Assembly: GCF_001506075.1 (NCBI RefSeq)
Contig: NZ_KQ947475.1
Location: 2,031,527 to 2,095,526, forward strand
Direction of reading: 5' to 3'
DNA: 64,000 nucleotides
From: Vibrio sp. MEBiC08052
GTDB taxonomy: Bacteria > Pseudomonadota > Gammaproteobacteria > Enterobacterales > Vibrionaceae
The notes under the pieces were generated by a model, which was given only the letters and a program-made list of their open reading frames with translations, was not told where the DNA came from and did not search any database. Made by a program: the position numbers and the translations under genes. Shown piece by piece: positions 50,752 to 64,000 of this stretch; position 1 is the first letter of the stretch, and the number at the start of each line of letters is the position of its first letter.

Positions 50752-52584
50752 ATGAGAAAACAGCAAGTTTTCAAAAACATCAGTTGTAAGAAACAGACCC
50801 TCAGTATTGGTATCAGTCTGGCTTTGGCTGCTTTATCCGGTTCTGCGTACGCAGGATGTACCTATGAAGTTCAGAGTGACTGGGGTTCAGGTTTCGTTGC
50901 TAACGTGACTGTCAAAAATGATACTTCCAGCGCTGTATCAGCATGGAATGTGGGCTGGGAGTATACCAAAGGTGCCAAAATCACCAATATATGGAACGCT
51001 GCACTGTCCGGTAGTAACCCATATACCGCAAGTAGTACAGCTTCAAACGGTAATTTACAGCCCGGCTCCAGCACCACATTCGGCTTTCAAGGCACCGGTA
51101 CATCAGAGGTTCCAACCCTAACCGGTTCACTATGTGGTGATCCCGGTGACCCTGGTGATCCCGGTGACCCCGGTGACCCTAGTGACCCCGGTGACGGCAA
51201 CCAAGTTGTCTTCCGGGTCAATGAAAATGGTCATATCACCAAAGATGATGTCGTCAAACCGGTTCGTTGTGGCTCATGGTTTGGTCTGGAAGGTCGTCAC
51301 GAACAGGCAAATGACGCTACCAACCCTAGCGGCGCACCGATGGAACTCTATATGGGTAACACATTCTGGGCGAACAACAGCCAAGGTACAGGCCGGACAA
51401 TCCAACAAACCATGGATGAAATCAAAGCGAAAGGTATCAACCTGATTCGTCTGCCTATCGCACCGCAAACACTGGATCCGGATGACCCGCAAGGTCAACC
51501 TCGCGTCTTTAAAAACCACCAATCTGTACGTGCAACCAATGCGCGTCAGGCACTGGAAGACTTCATCAAACTGGCTGACAAAAACGGGCTCGATATCCTG
51601 CTCGATATTCACTCATGCTCGAATTATCTAGGCTGGCGTGCGGGACGTTTAGACGCAACACCACCTTATGCTGATGCAAACCGTGATAACTACCCCTACA
51701 AACGTGAAAACTACTCCTGTGGTACCGATGTCGGTCCTGGCGTTACCGTTCAAGAATACAACGAACAGAAATGGCTGGAAGACCTCCGTCAACTGGCACG
51801 TTTCGCGGATGAGCTGAAAGTGAACAACATCCTCGGGATCGATATCTTCAACGAACCATGGGATTACACTTGGACAGATTGGAAAACGCTGGCTGAGCAT
51901 GCATACGAGGCCATCAACGAAGAAAACAAAAATGTGTTGATCTGGGTTGAAGGGATCAGTGGTGGTACATCAGCTGGCACACAAAGTCCTCATGGTGATG
52001 AAGCAACTAATCCAAACTGGGGTGAAAACTTCTTCTCAATGGCAACTGACCCACTGAATATTCCAAAAGACCGTTTAGTGCTGTCACCACATACCTATGG
52101 TCCTTCTGTATCTGTACAGAAACAGTTTATGGACCCTGCTCAACCAGAATGTGCCGGCTTGTCTGAAGACGAAGCGGCTAAAGCAAAATGTAACATTGTG
52201 ATTAACCCTGAACTGCTCAGAGAAGGCTGGGAAGAACACTTTGGTTATCTCAAAGATAAAGGCTATGCAATTGTGATCGGTGAATTCGGTGGTCACTATG
52301 ACTGGCCGGAATCTGGTGCAGTCCGTATTCAAGATATGTGGGGTTACCTCCCTCGTTCTGATTATGATAAAAAATGGCAAAATGCACTTGTTGACTACAT
52401 GTCAGACAAGAACATTGAAGGTTGCTACTGGAGCATCAACCCAGAATCAGACGACACCGGTGGTTTGTACAGTCACGCCTATGATGCACGGACCAACACA
52501 TCTGGCTGGGGTGAATGGACTGGCTTCGAAACTGAGAAATGGGACATGTTACAACGGTTGTGGGATTCAAATACCGTCAAGTAA
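50752..52584 (+). CDS. Secreted GH5 endoglucanase with N-terminal CBM2
   Basis: 610-aa secreted enzyme that hydrolyses internal beta-1,4 links in cellulose. The signal peptide ends SGSAYA/GC (residue 34). CBM2 spans residues 35-128, closed by the Cys 36-Cys 128 pair and bearing surface Trp residues (SAWNVGWEY). A Gly-Asp-Pro linker (129-150) leads to the GH5 catalytic barrel (about 151-610). The acid/base Glu is in DIFNEPWDYTW and the nucleophile Glu in VIGEFGGHYDW. Export to the medium is probably by type II secretion. It is 40 bases upstream of the GH43 gene and likely co-transcribed. Confidence 0.92.
   Translation: MRKQQVFKNISCKKQTLSIGISLALAALSGSAYAGCTYEVQSDWGSGFVANVTVKNDTSSAVSAWNVGWEYTKGAKITNIWNAALSGSNPYTASSTASNGNLQPGSSTTFGFQGTGTSEVPTLTGSLCGDPGDPGDPGDPGDPSDPGDGNQVVFRVNENGHITKDDVVKPVRCGSWFGLEGRHEQANDATNPSGAPMELYMGNTFWANNSQGTGRTIQQTMDEIKAKGINLIRLPIAPQTLDPDDPQGQPRVFKNHQSVRATNARQALEDFIKLADKNGLDILLDIHSCSNYLGWRAGRLDATPPYADANRDNYPYKRENYSCGTDVGPGVTVQEYNEQKWLEDLRQLARFADELKVNNILGIDIFNEPWDYTWTDWKTLAEHAYEAINEENKNVLIWVEGISGGTSAGTQSPHGDEATNPNWGENFFSMATDPLNIPKDRLVLSPHTYGPSVSVQKQFMDPAQPECAGLSEDEAAKAKCNIVINPELLREGWEEHFGYLKDKGYAIVIGEFGGHYDWPESGAVRIQDMWGYLPRSDYDKKWQNALVDYMSDKNIEGCYWSINPESDDTGGLYSHAYDARTNTSGWGEWTGFETEKWDMLQRLWDSNTVK
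51136..51189 (+). repeat. Tandem 9-base repeat coding the Gly-Asp-Pro linker
   Basis: Six consecutive nine-base units of the form GGTGAYCCY (one begins AGT, giving Ser) encode the flexible GDP linker between CBM2 and the GH5 domain. Unit gain or loss keeps the frame, so linker length can vary between strains. Confidence 0.85.
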
Positions 52585-56360: not shown

Positions 56361-58616
56361 TCACCAGACCACCTCAGCTTCAACACCCCGAAGATGTTGG
56401 TTGAGATTCACACCGTGAGCACTTTCTCTGCTATAACGCTGTCGGACTCTGATTGATTGACGGATTGATTTTGAGGTTAAGGCCAGTGGCGGATATCTCC
56501 GGTTAAAATGTGCAATAGCTTGCTGTGTCTTCAGCATCAACCGCTCATCTCCCAGTTTCCACGCCAGATAATACGATTTCATTAGATTGGAGCGACGATT
56601 GAGTACATGCTGCTCATAGCTTTTACGGGCGTTGTTGAGTTGATATTGTTTGGATAAATCCCCCGGCGTCATTCCGACCGATTGTTCCAGAATCTCAAAA
56701 ACGTCAAAGTCCTCTTTATATGCATCACCCCGGCTATTTAAAGCACCTTCGTCCGCATACCGATAGGCTTTCATGGCATTCTTCACAGCAACCGGGACAA
56801 GACCTTCAATACTGCGATAATAATCCCCGTGAAGTGCTTTATCACCGGATCGGATTGCCTGTACTGCAACACCGCCCAGAACAGGACCGGCAACCTGCTG
56901 CGCGTAAAAAGACCAGACATTGTCCCCTTCCAAATCCCGGTTCGGGTCACGTATCCACATCCCATCTAACGAAATCCTCGGTGACATCCCAGCCCCACCG
57001 ACCCCGTAAATAATCTTATTCGCAATATCCTCCCCAAGTACATCAGACAAATAGGTTTTGAACTCGGTTTCAGCCTCCCATGGCTCATCATCACCACCAA
57101 AAGCAGCATTCAGACTGTCTGCCAGACCGTATACCAGACTCAGAGGCAATGCGGACACGCCCCCCAGTAGCGCAGTCATACCCAGTGTGCCGACAAGCTG
57201 TTTTCTGGCTTCCGATCGTTCTTCAGACGTCATACCTTTCATTGACAGGAATGCATTGCGCATCAGATAGTAAGTCATGTTCTGCGAATATTGTTTGAAC
57301 TGAGTTGCCACCTTCATCACAGGACTCTGCATATAGCGAGCCCGGTTCACATTCGAATAATCAAAATGTGCATCCCATGTTAATTTTTCAGCCAATTTTG
57401 CAGATTGGTCGTGACTCATGCCTTTTTTACGGGCTAGCCGATAAGTGGCCAATGCTGTGGTTTCCCGGTTAAACACCTCAGCTTTGTGAAACAGAGCCGA
57501 CATCCAGCCGGAGAACTTCTCATATGCGGGGCTGTATTTCCAGCTCTGCCCTTCGGCCATACCTGCCAAATCATGCGCATTGGTAGAATCCAGCAGGCCG
57601 GAGTCGTACCACTGATTAAATGCATCGATTTCATCCAGATTGGTCAACCTGACTTTAATATTTCCTTTCGCTGAAATGAATTCTTTCGTTGCTTTTGCCA
57701 ATTCAGATGAGGCACGAATTGCGCCAAACTTGCTGGCAATCATGGGCAAAGCAACCACAAAATTCTGAGTGATGTTCACTGCCGCCGCTGCCGGAGAAAA
57801 ACCCAACATATATAAAAACCCAAGGGATGTGATTTTCTGCGCGGCTTTGGAATGTTTCGGATACATGACCCATTCATGGCGTTTCATCAGTTCATTGGCA
57901 TACCTTGATGACTGATTGTCTCCACTCTTCTTCGCGGTTTCTACCGTCTCAGTTGCAAGTTTTGTCAGTTCGTCTGCGTATTCAAGCCGGGCCAACTGAT
58001 AAGAACCCTTGACCATATTTTCAGCCAGCGCCCTGAGCGCATCATTACTCCACCCTTTCACTTTCTGTCTGTGCATAAATTGTTTACGCATCGAGCGGCT
58101 AGGCAATGACTGAAGATACATTTGATAAATTATGTCCTGTAGTTCGGTTTTCTTTAAATCATTGAGACTGGATTCTTCAACCTGTCCGACTAAATCAACC
58201 ACAAAACCCAGACTCGCCCCTTCAATATGTTGGTTTTTGTCCAACTTATAACCGGTAAAAACAGAAAAACCCTGACGTTCAAGTTTCTCTTTCGCCACTT
58301 GTTGCTCACGCTCAGACTCATACATCATATAGCGTTTCTCGCCGTTCTCATCCGTGGTACTCAGCCAGTAATCGCCAAAGCGTGATAATGGGAAATACGG
58401 AGCCATAACTTCCTGTAACTCAAATTGCGCTCTCAAATCAGCCAGACGCGCCTTTTTTATCCTGCCGTCAATCGCCGCATTGATAATCTGCTGCTCCAGT
58501 AGATGTTTAAAAAGATCGTGACGCTCCCGGTAAGTATCACGCATCGACCGGTAATGCTGTTTCGCTTCCTCCGGCAACTTATCAAATCGCTGTTTTAACT
58601 CAGCATGTTTTTTCAT
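56361..58616 (-). CDS. PLxRFG-domain protein, C-terminal part of a polyvalent phage/conjugative protein
   Basis: 751 aa, mostly helical, with the defining PLSRFG in MAPYFPLSRFGDYWLS near residue 80. Such domains occur at the C-termini of giant 'polyvalent' proteins carried into the host by phages and conjugative elements. A hydrophobic stretch near 255-300 (LGFLYMLGFSPAAAAVNITQ) and another near 495-515 could insert in membrane. It starts within the stop of the preceding ORF (ATGA overlap). Homologues are commonly fused to the upstream domains, so it may be a fragment of a larger gene or a coupled separate gene. Confidence 0.75.
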   Translation of the reverse strand: MKKHAELKQRFDKLPEEAKQHYRSMRDTYRERHDLFKHLLEQQIINAAIDGRIKKARLADLRAQFELQEVMAPYFPLSRFGDYWLSTTDENGEKRYMMYESEREQQVAKEKLERQGFSVFTGYKLDKNQHIEGASLGFVVDLVGQVEESSLNDLKKTELQDIIYQMYLQSLPSRSMRKQFMHRQKVKGWSNDALRALAENMVKGSYQLARLEYADELTKLATETVETAKKSGDNQSSRYANELMKRHEWVMYPKHSKAAQKITSLGFLYMLGFSPAAAAVNITQNFVVALPMIASKFGAIRASSELAKATKEFISAKGNIKVRLTNLDEIDAFNQWYDSGLLDSTNAHDLAGMAEGQSWKYSPAYEKFSGWMSALFHKAEVFNRETTALATYRLARKKGMSHDQSAKLAEKLTWDAHFDYSNVNRARYMQSPVMKVATQFKQYSQNMTYYLMRNAFLSMKGMTSEERSEARKQLVGTLGMTALLGGVSALPLSLVYGLADSLNAAFGGDDEPWEAETEFKTYLSDVLGEDIANKIIYGVGGAGMSPRISLDGMWIRDPNRDLEGDNVWSFYAQQVAGPVLGGVAVQAIRSGDKALHGDYYRSIEGLVPVAVKNAMKAYRYADEGALNSRGDAYKEDFDVFEILEQSVGMTPGDLSKQYQLNNARKSYEQHVLNRRSNLMKSYYLAWKLGDERLMLKTQQAIAHFNRRYPPLALTSKSIRQSIRVRQRYSRESAHGVNLNQHLRGVEAEVVW

Positions 58617-59092
58617 ACGACGGGCTCACCGGCCAGCATATTTCTGAGCGTTTTCAGCTCATCCATTTGCTCATTAGTTTTATGACTGCCGTCGTTTACA
58701 TATTCCAGATGCTGTATCCGTTTCTCGGCAACCTCCCGAGCGGACTGAAACGCTTGCGCCGGGTCAACACCTTCAATGGTTGACTGATGTGCGATATCAA
58801 ACATCTCATCAGCATCTTGTTTGTTTCGACCCATCCATTTACGGATAGAATTAGCCATCTCGTGCGCATCAAAGGCGAGCTGATTCCGGCGGCTTAACAT
58901 CCGGTGAACGGTGTCAACATACTCACTCAACTGAGGCAGTTTTCGCTGAGACAGGTCCGCAAGTTGGCGTAGTGTGAGAGCTCCGAGTCCCAGATTGCCA
59001 CGAACCGCTCCCAGCCCCTGAGAAACTGCATTGAGCACACCGCTGAATCTGGCCCGTGGTGTAGACTGGGCCAGCGCTTCATCCAGAGTCAT
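58613..59092 (-). CDS. Fragment or small ORF of the polyvalent protein module
   Basis: 159-aa helical protein (MTLDEALAQSTPRARFSGVL, TLRQLADLSQRKLPQLSEYV, LAFDAHEMANSIRKWMG). It reads like the segment that precedes the PLxRFG domain in giant polyvalent proteins. A good AGGAG site seven bases before its ATG allows separate translation. However, the frame upstream is continuous through QEKT into SPDIQFS once two copies of the 22-base repeat are removed, joining it in frame to the helicase ORF. It is therefore either a coupled gene or the severed continuation of that ORF. Confidence 0.65.
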   Translation of the reverse strand: MTLDEALAQSTPRARFSGVLNAVSQGLGAVRGNLGLGALTLRQLADLSQRKLPQLSEYVDTVHRMLSRRNQLAFDAHEMANSIRKWMGRNKQDADEMFDIAHQSTIEGVDPAQAFQSAREVAEKRIQHLEYVNDGSHKTNEQMDELKTLRNMLAGEPVV

Positions 59093-59104: not shown

Positions 59105-59170
59105 AGAGAACTGAATATCAGGTGATAGAGAACTGAATATCAGGTGATAGAGAACTGAATATCAGGTGAT
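59105..59170. repeat. Threefold exact 22-base tandem repeat splitting the polyvalent gene
   Basis: Three identical 22-base units at 59105-59126, 59127-59148 and 59149-59170 (each starts AGAGAACTGAATATCAGG). On the minus strand the first copy read encodes SPDIQFS in the helicase frame, and the next copy brings TGA into frame at 59140-59142. With a single copy the frame continues into the 159-aa ORF without interruption. The unit is not a multiple of three. Confidence 0.95.
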
Positions 59171-62100
59171 GTTGATATCCTGCTGTCCGCAGCTTTCAGA
59201 TATGAGTTATTTGCCATTCTGGCCCGGTCCGCCAGCATCTGGACAATATTGTTCAGCTCAGCAACAGTGACATCCGATGCTTTCATCAGCCCGACTTTTC
59301 TCAGGGCGTGAGCAATGGCTTCCACCACCCGGTCCCACCACTGCCGGATTTTGTTTCTGTCGATTTCAGCGGCGCGTGCCAGCACCTCTTCAACCAAATC
59401 ACTGTCACTCTGGCCTCGATAGTTCCGGTCAACGCTCTCCCACAACGCCTTCAGATACGGAGAGTTCCGGCCCTGCCTGACACGCCGGAGGATGGTCTGA
59501 TATTCAGTAGCCCCCACAACCGTCTTCAGACTGTGATGCACCAGTATTTCATGACGCAGTTTCTGGCGAAGCTGTTTTGCACTCTCAAGATTTTCAGCAA
59601 TTACGACAACTTCACGGCTGTCCCGGCGATAAAATGAATGAATCACACGTTGGCCGAAGTTCATTCCCGCAATTTTCTCTGCCGCTGCCTGTGTCGGAAC
59701 CACGGTCACTTTCACACCGGCCCCGCCTTGATAGGCTTTTAGCCACTGACTGACCACTAGTTCTGCCGATTTCAGAGACATGCCTTTGCCCGGTCTTTGC
59801 ATTGCGATACTTGCCTTGCTGAAAACAATCTCTGACGAACTGGTTTTCGGCTGCTCTAGCTGATTCAGACGAATAAAATCGTCAATCTGAGCTTTATTGA
59901 TGGGCCGAAGAGGGGCAATCTTTTCAAATGCATTCACCAATGCTGACAGTTTTGAGGGTTCAACCTCGACACTCAATATCCCACTGCCGCTGACTGCCTG
60001 CTCTCCGATAATGGCTTCAATCTCCGGGTTCCCCCAAAAACGTTTCCCTCTGCTGACTGATTTAGGCATTTGCAGCACATACTTTGCTTCAGCGCTGCGT
60101 GAATCCCGACGTAAAAGCGCATCATGCTGTTTGGTCGAAAGCCCTAATGATGCCAGTTCGTTATCGCGGGTATTCATCAGCCACTCAAGGGACTGCTCCG
60201 CTGTAGCATCCACAGTCGCCTTAATATGTGTCTTCGGCTCAAAACTGCGAGGTAATAACATCCCCTGAATCACACGACCATCATGTGCTGTAAACGGAAC
60301 GATCTGCCCCGCTTTGATGGTTTGATCTTTTGCCATGATTAAATTGCCCGTCATGACATAACGGTTTTCAACGGACGGTAAAGATGCCTGATGGTCAAAG
60401 ATCATCTGCATCTGGCTTTCATCCATCTCATTACCGGCTTGGGTCAGCGTCCCATCGTGAATATGTCGGTATGTAAACGAAATATGCCGGGTCTGATCAG
60501 CAACCATCACTTCAATTCTGGTTTTTGACGGAGCCATAGGATCGCCGGACTGACTGGCATGATTCACACCGACCACCACCCCCATCACAGACGGACTATC
60601 TGTCTCTTCAGGATTAAATTTAACCCGAACAAACTGACCATATGCCCCTGATACCCAACGCTCATAACTCCCGATGCGGTGTTTGTAAGCCGCGAGTGCA
60701 GAGGTCATCTCATTTTTTTCAGACACAAGTGATTTCACCGATTTTCCTTTGGCACGGTGAGTTTCAATCAACTGATTCAGAGACTCCACTTTGCCTTGCA
60801 TCTGATCGTAAAATTCATTGGCCTGAACTTTCACCTGATGCGCCAGTGATTTGAACGTAGCCTCACTACTCTGACTAAGCCGCTCCTGCACTTCATCCCA
60901 GTGCGGCGCTTTCCCTTGCATCTTCGCTCTGATCCGGGTGAGATAAACCGGCTCGGAGAATACGCCGCGCTTCGGATCGCCTGCGACCAGTTGCGTCTGC
61001 TCGACCGGCTCAGCCTGTAAATCGATCTCAGTCATATTCAGATAGTTCTGACCGGTGGCATTGAGATAATTGATTTTTTCTGCATACAGGGTATCCAGCT
61101 CAGCCAGAACATCCCGCTGGAGCGCAACCGGCAATACGGCAAGTTTGCCCAGAAAATAGTTCGCAGGATGATCTGCCTCACTCACCTTGACAAAATCATC
61201 GCCATATTCACCCAGTGCTTTCAGATTTTCTTTAACATACTGAATCACAACCGCATCCCCGTATGGGTTGAGTAAATCAAAGGACTTCACAGAGGTCGCA
61301 GATTCAGTTGAGCCGGAGGTGTTGGCATTCAGACTGGCCATTTTCCCGGCCAATACCGCTGCCGGACGTTTTTCACTGGGTAAATCCAGCCATGCATTCG
61401 CATACTTCGGTACATTGACCTGTCCGGTTCGGTTGACACGCCCCAGCATCTGCATATAGGTATCAATATTGAGACTCGGCTGAGCCACAATCATAAATCG
61501 TTGACGGGTATCCGGATAATCGGCGCGACTGTGAATAGACAACCCTGTCGAACCCGCCTGATTTAAAATCAGTACATCCAGCATTCCGGTATTAAATTTA
61601 TCGACCTGTCCCCGTCGGTCATTCGCTTCTGCTGTTGCTCTCGGAATTATTTTCCTAGAATCATAATCTACCATCCGTTTGCGACCGGTGATTTCTGCAA
61701 CCCTCATCCCTGCCTGCTCAAGCTGGTGTCTGATATGATCAATCGGAGAGGCGGGAATATGATAGTGCGCAATTTTAGCAATAGCGGCTCTGGCCTGCTC
61801 ATACAGGTGTTTCAGTAATGGACTATCTATGTCATCAATCGATACGGTAAATTTCTCTGAATCCGTCTCGCCCGGCACTTTCACCCGGTATGCCAGCACG
61901 TTTTCCAGTGTTCTGCCCAGATAATCAGCATAAGACAGTGACCCCAGCGAATCTCCATCACTCAGATTATTATCTGCCATATAGTTCTTTAATGCCGATC
62001 CCAATGTACTTTCCAGAGCAATCACTGGCTTTTCACCACGCCCGGATGATGCAATAGCCAATTCAGCAATCGCATCAGCTTTCAGACCTAACGTTAACTG

Positions 62101-64000
62101 CGCAATATAGTTATGCACCACCGAACTGAACGAATTGACATTGATATTTTTATCCGCTTTATTGCCGCTGGTCATCGTATCCAGCCCGTGCTCCGCCGCA
62201 ATACTTTCAGCAAGCTCCTCTTGCACATAATCGTCCCATGCTCGGGACAAACGCTGTAACCCCCGCAGAGCCGCCGTAGTCGTATCAAAGGCTTTTTCGA
62301 TATCACCGCCTGAGTTGATGATTTCATCTTTGATTTCAATGCCATCAAAGCTGCGCTCTCGACGAATATAATGTCCGGCCTGTGCCAGTTTAGCGGCAAT
62401 ATAGTTCTGCATCCCGAGGCCACCGGTTTCAATCGCTCCGGTCACATCATCGCCCCCCGCCGCAACCCCTAAATCAGTCCGTCGGTACAGGGCCATATTT
62501 TCTGGTCGTTTCGCATAGGTGGCAGACAGATACGTCAGACCGGCCACTTTTCCCACATATTGATTAAAGAAAAGCCCACGATTTGACTTTGCCTTTTCTC
62601 CGGAAGCGGCTGAATGCGCTTCATCCATCACCAGAATGGCATTTTTAGCCAAGGCATTCAGAGCCGATTTTTTTATACCGCTCTGGTCTGTACTGATTTG
62701 ATCATATGTGGCAAATAGCGCATCAAAACCGTCAGGTAACCGACCGGTCTCATTCATTTCAGAAAAATATTTTTTGAGTGTCTTACCGCTGTTCCGGTGC
62801 CTGAATACTGTTTTTTCCTGCGGGGTTCCGGGAGAGATTACCTGCTTAATGCCGACTCCACGGTTCATAATCAGTGGGGTAAACTGCCTCACACCGATAT
62901 CAGCAAGGTCGTCAACCATATCGGTAAACAGATTATCTTTTTGTGTAATGAAGATGGGCGTCTTACCGGCATTCATCGCATAACGAAGGATGCCGGCAGC
63001 CTGACGGCCTTTGCCGACACCGGTCTGGTCGCCGATAATAATTGCCTTATTATTTTCAATCGCAGAAACGGCCAGTCCGACAGCATCGGTTTGCAGTCCC
63101 ATAAACGCATCGTGCAACTCAGATATCGAGGGATATCCGAGCTTGTCCATGACATAAGTATCGATATTGCCATGACGCGCTTCTAAATCTGACAGCGCCT
63201 CTGAGGTGTAGTATTCAATGTTGGCCGGGGTTAATACGCTGTCATTCAGACCGCCCGATTTAGACCGGTAAACCGACTGGAAGGCATTCGCCCGCTTGCT
63301 GTCCGGGGCTGATTTAATCTCATTTTCGTCTAAAGGTTGAGCAGGCTGATGACTTCTATCAGATCCTGCGTCCTTTTCAGCTCGTCCGGCAGGGTCGGCA
63401 CTGTTTTCTGTGGATAATTCTCTAGATCCCAGAACCTCTCCAGCAGCCCGATGGATGAGCCTTCCAGTATCCAGTCGGACATCTCGTGCGGCGCGTGCGG
63501 ACCGATCCCCGGCGGTGTGTCCAGCAGAATGACCGCTTCCCTTTGATCTTCTTTCGTTGCCTCCTCGATGATGAGCGGCAGCGCCTCGCTGAGTTCGCTG
63601 AGCATCAATTCGTAAGACAGCTCGCGCTCTCCGCTTACCCGACACGTGAGCAGGATCTGTAGTTCTTCGTCCATATCGGGATGATTGGGTACCCAGTAAC
63701 CCCTGTTTCCGGTAGTGCTCATAAAGAGAGTCCCATGTCTGATGTCTTGTTATCCGTGATTTTGTCGGAGCAAACTGTCCGGTCGGTGTTTTGGCTCTGC
63801 CATCGATGCTGATGAGCATCACCGGCCATCCGGCTCCCTGTTTCTCATAGAGCTTCCCGTCAATTTCCGTGTAGTCGCGCACATGGTAGTTCTGATGCAG
63901 CCAGTTGAGAAAAATCCGTTGATTGACGGAGAGCTTACCGACGACTTTACTGGTGCCAAGGATAAGATACGCTTTACCGTCAGATTTCATCGCCTGTAAT
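59140..64000 (-). CDS. Polyvalent protein with strawberry-notch helicase and metallopeptidase-like motif (5' end outside window)
   Basis: At least 1616 residues; the frame is open to the right edge, so the ATG at 63990 is only the first in view. Residues 1-95 form a small domain (DYTEIDGKLYEKQGAGWPV). Residues 98-217 are a basic Arg/Ala/Gly-rich linker. From about 240 a strawberry-notch SF2 helicase follows, with Walker A GDQTGVGKGRQ (320-329), the DEAH box VMDEAHSAASG, and the C-terminal helicase lobe (NQAGSTGLSIHSR, QMLGRVNRTGQ). A RHEILVHHSL motif near 1480 with a later VEEVLARAAE resembles polyvalent metallopeptidase domains. It ends in the 22-base repeats at SPDIQFSIT. Likely delivered with invading DNA to protect or establish it, by analogy. 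Confidence 0.8.
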   Translation of the reverse strand, partial: LQAMKSDGKAYLILGTSKVVGKLSVNQRIFLNWLHQNYHVRDYTEIDGKLYEKQGAGWPVMLISIDGRAKTPTGQFAPTKSRITRHQTWDSLYEHYRKQGLLGTQSSRYGRRTTDPAHVSGKRRARAVLRIDAQRTQRGAAAHHRGGNERRSKGSGHSAGHTAGDRSARAARDVRLDTGRLIHRAAGEVLGSRELSTENSADPAGRAEKDAGSDRSHQPAQPLDENEIKSAPDSKRANAFQSVYRSKSGGLNDSVLTPANIEYYTSEALSDLEARHGNIDTYVMDKLGYPSISELHDAFMGLQTDAVGLAVSAIENNKAIIIGDQTGVGKGRQAAGILRYAMNAGKTPIFITQKDNLFTDMVDDLADIGVRQFTPLIMNRGVGIKQVISPGTPQEKTVFRHRNSGKTLKKYFSEMNETGRLPDGFDALFATYDQISTDQSGIKKSALNALAKNAILVMDEAHSAASGEKAKSNRGLFFNQYVGKVAGLTYLSATYAKRPENMALYRRTDLGVAAGGDDVTGAIETGGLGMQNYIAAKLAQAGHYIRRERSFDGIEIKDEIINSGGDIEKAFDTTTAALRGLQRLSRAWDDYVQEELAESIAAEHGLDTMTSGNKADKNINVNSFSSVVHNYIAQLTLGLKADAIAELAIASSGRGEKPVIALESTLGSALKNYMADNNLSDGDSLGSLSYADYLGRTLENVLAYRVKVPGETDSEKFTVSIDDIDSPLLKHLYEQARAAIAKIAHYHIPASPIDHIRHQLEQAGMRVAEITGRKRMVDYDSRKIIPRATAEANDRRGQVDKFNTGMLDVLILNQAGSTGLSIHSRADYPDTRQRFMIVAQPSLNIDTYMQMLGRVNRTGQVNVPKYANAWLDLPSEKRPAAVLAGKMASLNANTSGSTESATSVKSFDLLNPYGDAVVIQYVKENLKALGEYGDDFVKVSEADHPANYFLGKLAVLPVALQRDVLAELDTLYAEKINYLNATGQNYLNMTEIDLQAEPVEQTQLVAGDPKRGVFSEPVYLTRIRAKMQGKAPHWDEVQERLSQSSEATFKSLAHQVKVQANEFYDQMQGKVESLNQLIETHRAKGKSVKSLVSEKNEMTSALAAYKHRIGSYERWVSGAYGQFVRVKFNPEETDSPSVMGVVVGVNHASQSGDPMAPSKTRIEVMVADQTRHISFTYRHIHDGTLTQAGNEMDESQMQMIFDHQASLPSVENRYVMTGNLIMAKDQTIKAGQIVPFTAHDGRVIQGMLLPRSFEPKTHIKATVDATAEQSLEWLMNTRDNELASLGLSTKQHDALLRRDSRSAEAKYVLQMPKSVSRGKRFWGNPEIEAIIGEQAVSGSGILSVEVEPSKLSALVNAFEKIAPLRPINKAQIDDFIRLNQLEQPKTSSSEIVFSKASIAMQRPGKGMSLKSAELVVSQWLKAYQGGAGVKVTVVPTQAAAEKIAGMNFGQRVIHSFYRRDSREVVVIAENLESAKQLRQKLRHEILVHHSLKTVVGATEYQTILRRVRQGRNSPYLKALWESVDRNYRGQSDSDLVEEVLARAAEIDRNKIRQWWDRVVEAIAHALRKVGLMKASDVTVAELNNIVQMLADRARMANNSYLKAADSRISTSPDIQFSIT
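63330..63722 (-). CDS. 130-aa ORF nested out of frame inside the polyvalent gene
   Basis: Acidic, helix-forming sequence with normal composition (MSTTGNRGYWVPNHPDMDEE, LMLSELSEALPLIIEEA, AVILLDTPPGIGPHAP, DWILEGSSIGLLERFWDLE). It exactly spans the stretch (residues about 90-220) where the main frame turns into an Arg/Ala/Gly/His-rich linker, and that stretch looks more GC-rich than its surroundings. This suggests the 130-aa frame is the selected one here. It has no clear ribosome site. It could be an overlapping gene, a captured gene, or a piece of the main protein reached by frameshift. I recognise no family. Confidence 0.5.
   Translation of the reverse strand: MSTTGNRGYWVPNHPDMDEELQILLTCRVSGERELSYELMLSELSEALPLIIEEATKEDQREAVILLDTPPGIGPHAPHEMSDWILEGSSIGLLERFWDLENYPQKTVPTLPDELKRTQDLIEVISLLNL

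Follow-up and report, generated by a model that had tools for sequence, protein, structure and literature searches.

A giant gene in a prophage of Vibrio sp. MEBiC08052, which we take from its sequence to encode a phage polyvalent protein, has very probably been inactivated recently and privately, and the 22-bp tandem array that interrupts it is likely to be a scar of duplication and slippage rather than a length switch. Polyvalent proteins are packaged and injected with phage DNA, and a switch between forms of such a protein would have been striking; the evidence instead speaks for recent damage to a prophage. The part of the finding worth following is a short motif encoded by the repeated unit, which brackets the metallopeptidase module of this protein and of many of its phage relatives.

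The array lies at 59105..59170, on the minus strand, in the 64,000-nucleotide stretch that was analysed (the window). Tandem Repeats Finder and a mismatch scan bore out the three exact 22-base units described by the initial annotation: the program returned a period of 22, 3.0 copies and 100% matches, and at up to three mismatches these three units are the only occurrences in the window, against none expected from 100 shuffles. At up to two mismatches they are also the only occurrences in the home genome (G000), and the 22-mer is present in four of 227 Vibrio genomes: three times in tandem in G000, once each at the homologous place in G068 and in V. ruber (G195), and at one site in G123. The idea that the 22-mer is a dispersed element was rejected on this distribution (4/227 genomes). 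No exact copy was found in the viral contigs. Read in the helicase frame, the linker motif SPDIQFS comes from the first copy encountered, and the frame then runs SPDIQFS-IT-TGA, with the stop at 59140-59142 in the second copy, as the earlier reading had it. That reading was also right that every form with two or more copies ends in the second copy.

The gene regions comprise a Strawberry-notch-type helicase, a metallopeptidase, LPD39 and PLxRFG, and here they are spread over three ORFs on the minus strand. The first is a 2877-aa ORF that runs beyond the window end (genome C1:2090666-2099299, start C1:2099299); its 3' part, at 59140..64000, encodes the SF2 helicase (Pfam AAA_34 and Helicase_C_4), followed by the HEXXXH metallopeptidase. 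The junction of this ORF with a 159-aa ORF had been placed correctly, but its length had been given as 1616 residues, a value cut short by the window end. The metallopeptidase module, at 59143..59847, contains HEILVHH, with EIVFSK upstream and SPDIQFS downstream. The 159-aa ORF (58613..59092) carries the first half of LPD39 (Pfam profile positions 7-104 of 198); it starts at ATG 59092, with AGGAG six bases upstream, and its end at 58613 overlaps the next ATG by four bases. That ATG, at 58616, forms an ATGA overlap with the preceding stop, has GGTGAG upstream, and opens a 751-aa ORF (56361..58616) with the remainder of LPD39 (profile 123-188) and the PLxRFG/tail-700 domain (Pfam, NCBIfam). Of the three genomes compared, the window's alone has the AGGAG before ATG 59092, both relatives having GAA for the window's GAG.

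Several features identify the gene as that of a polyvalent protein in a mobile element. AAA_34, Helicase_C_4, LPD39 and tail-700/PLxRFG are all found across the three window ORFs, and in G068 the helicase and LPD39 matches fall within one 3791-aa frame (scanned as three pieces). PHROGs profiles for the major head protein, portal, terminase, internal virion protein and tail fibre match 14-36 kb upstream, while in G068 a portal/terminase block lies ~4 kb from the polyvalent gene. Blocks common to the window prophage and G068 stand in different order, hence both prophages look mosaic. HEILVHH conforms to the HEXXXH pattern of zincin-like metallopeptidases, and its H, E and H columns, together with a downstream E, are conserved in two alignments. 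A Pfam search of the peptidase module found no significant family, and Foldseek, used to look for the zincin fold, gave no match of any kind at E<=0.001; VIA-align returned weak rows only (Z ~4), in which lethal-factor and selecase chains appear alongside unrelated ones with similar Z. Near the gene, sequences resembling promoters were about as frequent as in shuffles (16, against 16.3). The sections of Iyer et al. 2017 (PMC5512222) drawn on here describe a group of HEXXXH peptidases, and polyvalent proteins that likewise unite a Strawberry-notch-type SF2 helicase, a HEXXXH peptidase and LPD39 in one giant protein, whereas the gene studied here is broken into three ORFs.

The intact state of the gene is preserved in relatives. 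The closest of those found, V. ruber and G068, each have one 22-bp copy and one open frame, of 3568 and 3791 aa respectively from stop to stop. Identity to the window across the gene is 95% for V. ruber (10.7 kb) and 90% for G068 (11.5 kb); the V. ruber homology ends ~0.7 kb ahead of the gene start, near a contig end. A 1.1-kb DNA query was fully covered by G195 (92% identity) and G068 (88%), in a search of 196 genus genomes that gave matches in five, the window's own included. A protein search of 227 genus genomes gave 15 with a match, again including the window's own, each genus search using one genome per species. Aligned across the junction, both closest relatives have one continuous frame, and 11 of the 15 matching genomes cover both sides of the border in a single open frame. 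Two others (G154 and G209) have long open frames that match essentially one side of it, in G225 stops interrupt what is left of the gene, and the remaining genome, that of the window, has the split. Beyond the peptidase HE, the frame stays open for at least 330 aa in all 83 loci compared, which comprise 80 viral contigs (retained of 120) and three Vibrio loci. The relatives identified by name are V. ruber, V. albus and Vibrio sp. HA2012. No other relative split at this border was found among the 15 genomes and 83 loci. A near DNA search in plasmids and a distant DNA search in phages gave no match; a single-protein scan of the viral contigs confirmed nothing, and an alignment-based scan did find loci there.

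Seven gaps are listed in the three-way alignment of the gene. Two have lengths that shift the frame, and at each of these the window alone departs from the other two sequences: one is of 44 bp at 59170, the other of 1 bp at ~58625. The latter is a second frame break (58620..58630, minus strand), where the window has one base fewer than both relatives in a short C run. It lies inside LPD39 and had been missed earlier, and consequently the claim that only a single-copy form is open stands as far as 58613 and fails beyond it. A reading of +44 and -1 as compensating changes was rejected, the net 43 not being a multiple of three and the stop lying inside the array. Hence the gene carries private frame-breaking changes relative to intact relatives.

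Insertions are found in the region of the gene as well. A 1419-bp IS4-family element stands 33 bp ahead of the gene's ATG, is flanked by a 12-bp direct repeat (AATAAAAAAGCC), a target duplication, and is absent at the homologous place in G068. The element has six copies in the genome, three of which lie within 41 kb here and are 99.9-100% identical (G000 C1:2099333-2100751, 2124696-2126114 and 2138951-2140369). A different DDE-transposase insertion, at L003:2469-3728 (C1 ~2108456-2109785), has the repeated GATTGGAACC on its flanks and is also absent in G068. Together, the IS4-family and DDE-transposase elements suggest that the region tolerates insertions.

Of the two outcomes that the initial annotation had offered for the repeat, recent inactivation is the one supported, by the one-copy open relatives, the second frameshift and the upstream IS. 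Under this reading, the intact ancestor would have encoded a polyvalent protein of ~3,800 residues, presumably packaged in the virion, that was broken recently in a single Vibrio lineage. In the linker joining metallopeptidase and LPD39, 22 bp were triplicated, probably by a first duplication and then slippage for the third copy, adding 44 bp out of frame and leaving a protein that stops just past the peptidase module. A separate one-base loss split LPD39, and an IS4-family element inserted 33 bp before the ATG; these changes probably abolished function, and they may have occurred in a different order. Judged by how much of each profile they cover, the ORFs for portal, terminase and major head protein seem to be full length, which is a point against inactivation.

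The coding sequence on either side of the repeat gives no sign that selection has been relaxed after the breaks, whether judged by codon changes on the window branch or by dN/dS. Past the repeat, 23 synonymous and four nonsynonymous codon changes fall on the window branch, and 28 and nine on the V. ruber branch; ahead of it, the window branch has 82 and 44 and the V. ruber branch 103 and 65. The dN/dS ratio relative to V. ruber is 0.117 for the part that follows the repeat and 0.193 for the part that precedes it. The missing relaxation lowers confidence in inactivation without removing it, as a young pseudogene need not show relaxation. The breaks are therefore of recent date, unless the pieces continue to be produced; split proteins could still arise from the downstream ORFs, given the plausible re-initiation contexts at ATG 59092 and ATG 58616. 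The private frameshifts and several IS insertions within one prophage resemble prophage decay by indels and IS, with the difference that selection here is not yet relaxed, which again means either recent damage or pieces still in use.

The other outcome proposed for the repeat was a phase-variable switch, with slippage of the array deciding whether the polyvalent protein is made fused or split. Perfect tandem units are slippage-prone, a unit of 22 bp shifts the frame, and the downstream ORFs are under purifying selection, all of which would suit a switch, but the break at ~58625 truncates the protein at any repeat number. As this second break lies outside the array, downstream of it, and cuts LPD39, no copy number yields the whole protein, although some copy number with a full frame would be expected at a phase-variable locus. 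Even as far as the second break, one copy number only is readable past the array, all forms with two or more copies stopping in the second. Nor was a copy-number series found in the relatives examined: across species there is one copy in each of two relatives and three here, and the exact 22-mer is missing from the viral contigs, which thus offer no other copy-number state. The IS4-family insertion just upstream also argues against a switch. The locus shares with contingency loci its perfect tandem units of frame-shifting length, and differs from them in that no variation was seen, in having three units only, in its second frameshift and in its one-copy relatives. In the open-access literature searched, no paper was found that joins prophage phase variation with a 22-bp tandem repeat. 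We consider a switch very unlikely.

A functional fission, in which helicase-peptidase, the N-half of LPD39, and the C-half of LPD39 with PLxRFG have become coupled cistrons, would account for the low dN/dS, for the Shine-Dalgarno-like sequences and ATGA overlap at two restarts, and for the position of the first break, which falls at a conserved motif and where two modules naturally meet, in a part of the V. ruber protein model with pLDDT <50. Yet the second break runs through LPD39 itself, separating Pfam profile positions 7-104 from 123-188, none of the relatives among the genomes and loci compared is divided in this way, and the upstream IS probably hampers expression; fission is therefore an unlikely account of the three ORFs. 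Less probable still is that one break, or both, arose in sequencing or assembly. Tandem repeats and short homopolymers, both present here, are classic trouble spots, and a one-base assembly error at 58625 is conceivable. However, the 66 bp of the three copies are short enough for ordinary reads to span, the genome is in 3 contigs with 100% completeness, and the 11.4-kb gene has no further frame-changing gap among those listed.

Unexpectedly, the repeated unit proved to encode part of a wider pattern. A motif φx[FY]S[KRQ], where φ is hydrophobic, flanks the HEXXXH peptidase on both sides in many phage polyvalent relatives, ~90-94 residues before HEXXXH and ~123-134 after it, and SPDIQFS is the downstream member of the pair. 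In an alignment of 31 sequences, of which 30 rows are 23-48% identical to the first and all are related rather than independent events, the upstream motif has F/Y in 31/31, Ser in 31/31 and K/R/Q in 30/31, while most of its neighbours vary; downstream, Ser is found in 28/31 and F/Y in 24/31. Across 18 clusters (60% identity, from 97 loci), the density of the strict motif relative to the rest of the frames is 48x in the upstream motif window and 25x in the downstream one. The strict motif occurs in 9/18 clusters upstream and 8/17 downstream, and the looser [FY]S[KRQ] in 14/18 and 14/17. These motif windows were set after the first examples had been seen, and seven viral clusters were not used in setting them. 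In those seven, the strict pattern is weakly concentrated (three in the windows and six elsewhere, p 0.008), and the looser pattern strongly so (11 and nine, p 4e-10). The motif is absent at the expected places in two plasmid zeta-toxin relatives, and its upstream member is absent in Escherichia phage PTXU04.

The motif also recurs within linkers and where modules have been added. Two looser units, such as LSQAKFS, lie five residues apart in the downstream linker of 13/31 relatives, hence in-frame multiplication of the motif is common in this linker. In G054 (L013) and G215 (L042), an extra module between peptidase and LPD39 has an FS motif on both of its sides, and in L061, a viral locus, LPD3 comes after the motif. 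In the V. ruber protein model (mean pLDDT 71.5), the downstream motif falls in a stretch below 50 between the confident peptidase and a helical LPD39 part. For the upstream motif, the model shows a short strand at residues 39-41 beside a confident stretch, with a pLDDT of 60 for block 31-40 and 89 for block 41-50.

From these patterns, we predict that φx[FY]S[KRQ] is a candidate processing site in polyvalent proteins. Iyer et al. 2017 (PMC5512222) proposed that zincin-like peptidases process polyvalent proteins, citing P1 DdrB as processed, and name no linker motif or processing sequence in the sections drawn on here. Judged by titles and the start of abstracts, none of the open-access papers searched deals with this motif in phage polyvalent proteins. 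A more specific and tentative reading is that the bracketing motif is the cleavage site of the peptidase itself, copied at module insertions. The 22-bp repeat would then triplicate the DNA of such a site, the truncated product would end almost at the processing point, and the split might be tolerated for that reason. Alternatively, the motif may be a structural strand of the domain fold with no cut at all, which fits the better-modelled upstream copy. If it is a cut site, the 2017 proposal of self-processing by the proteins' own metallopeptidase becomes directly testable, and the packaged and injected fragments become predictable.

Two observations lie to the side of this locus. In the plasmids L056 and L057, the zeta-toxin protein starts with a relative of the same peptidase, and a helicase two genes on carries AIFS[KR] about one third of the way in; a putative cleavage of this helicase in trans by the zeta-toxin peptidase is possible. 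Elsewhere in the window, a 27-bp tandem repeat at 51136-51195, in a GH5 cellulase ORF just after CBM2, encodes an interdomain linker and looks ordinary.
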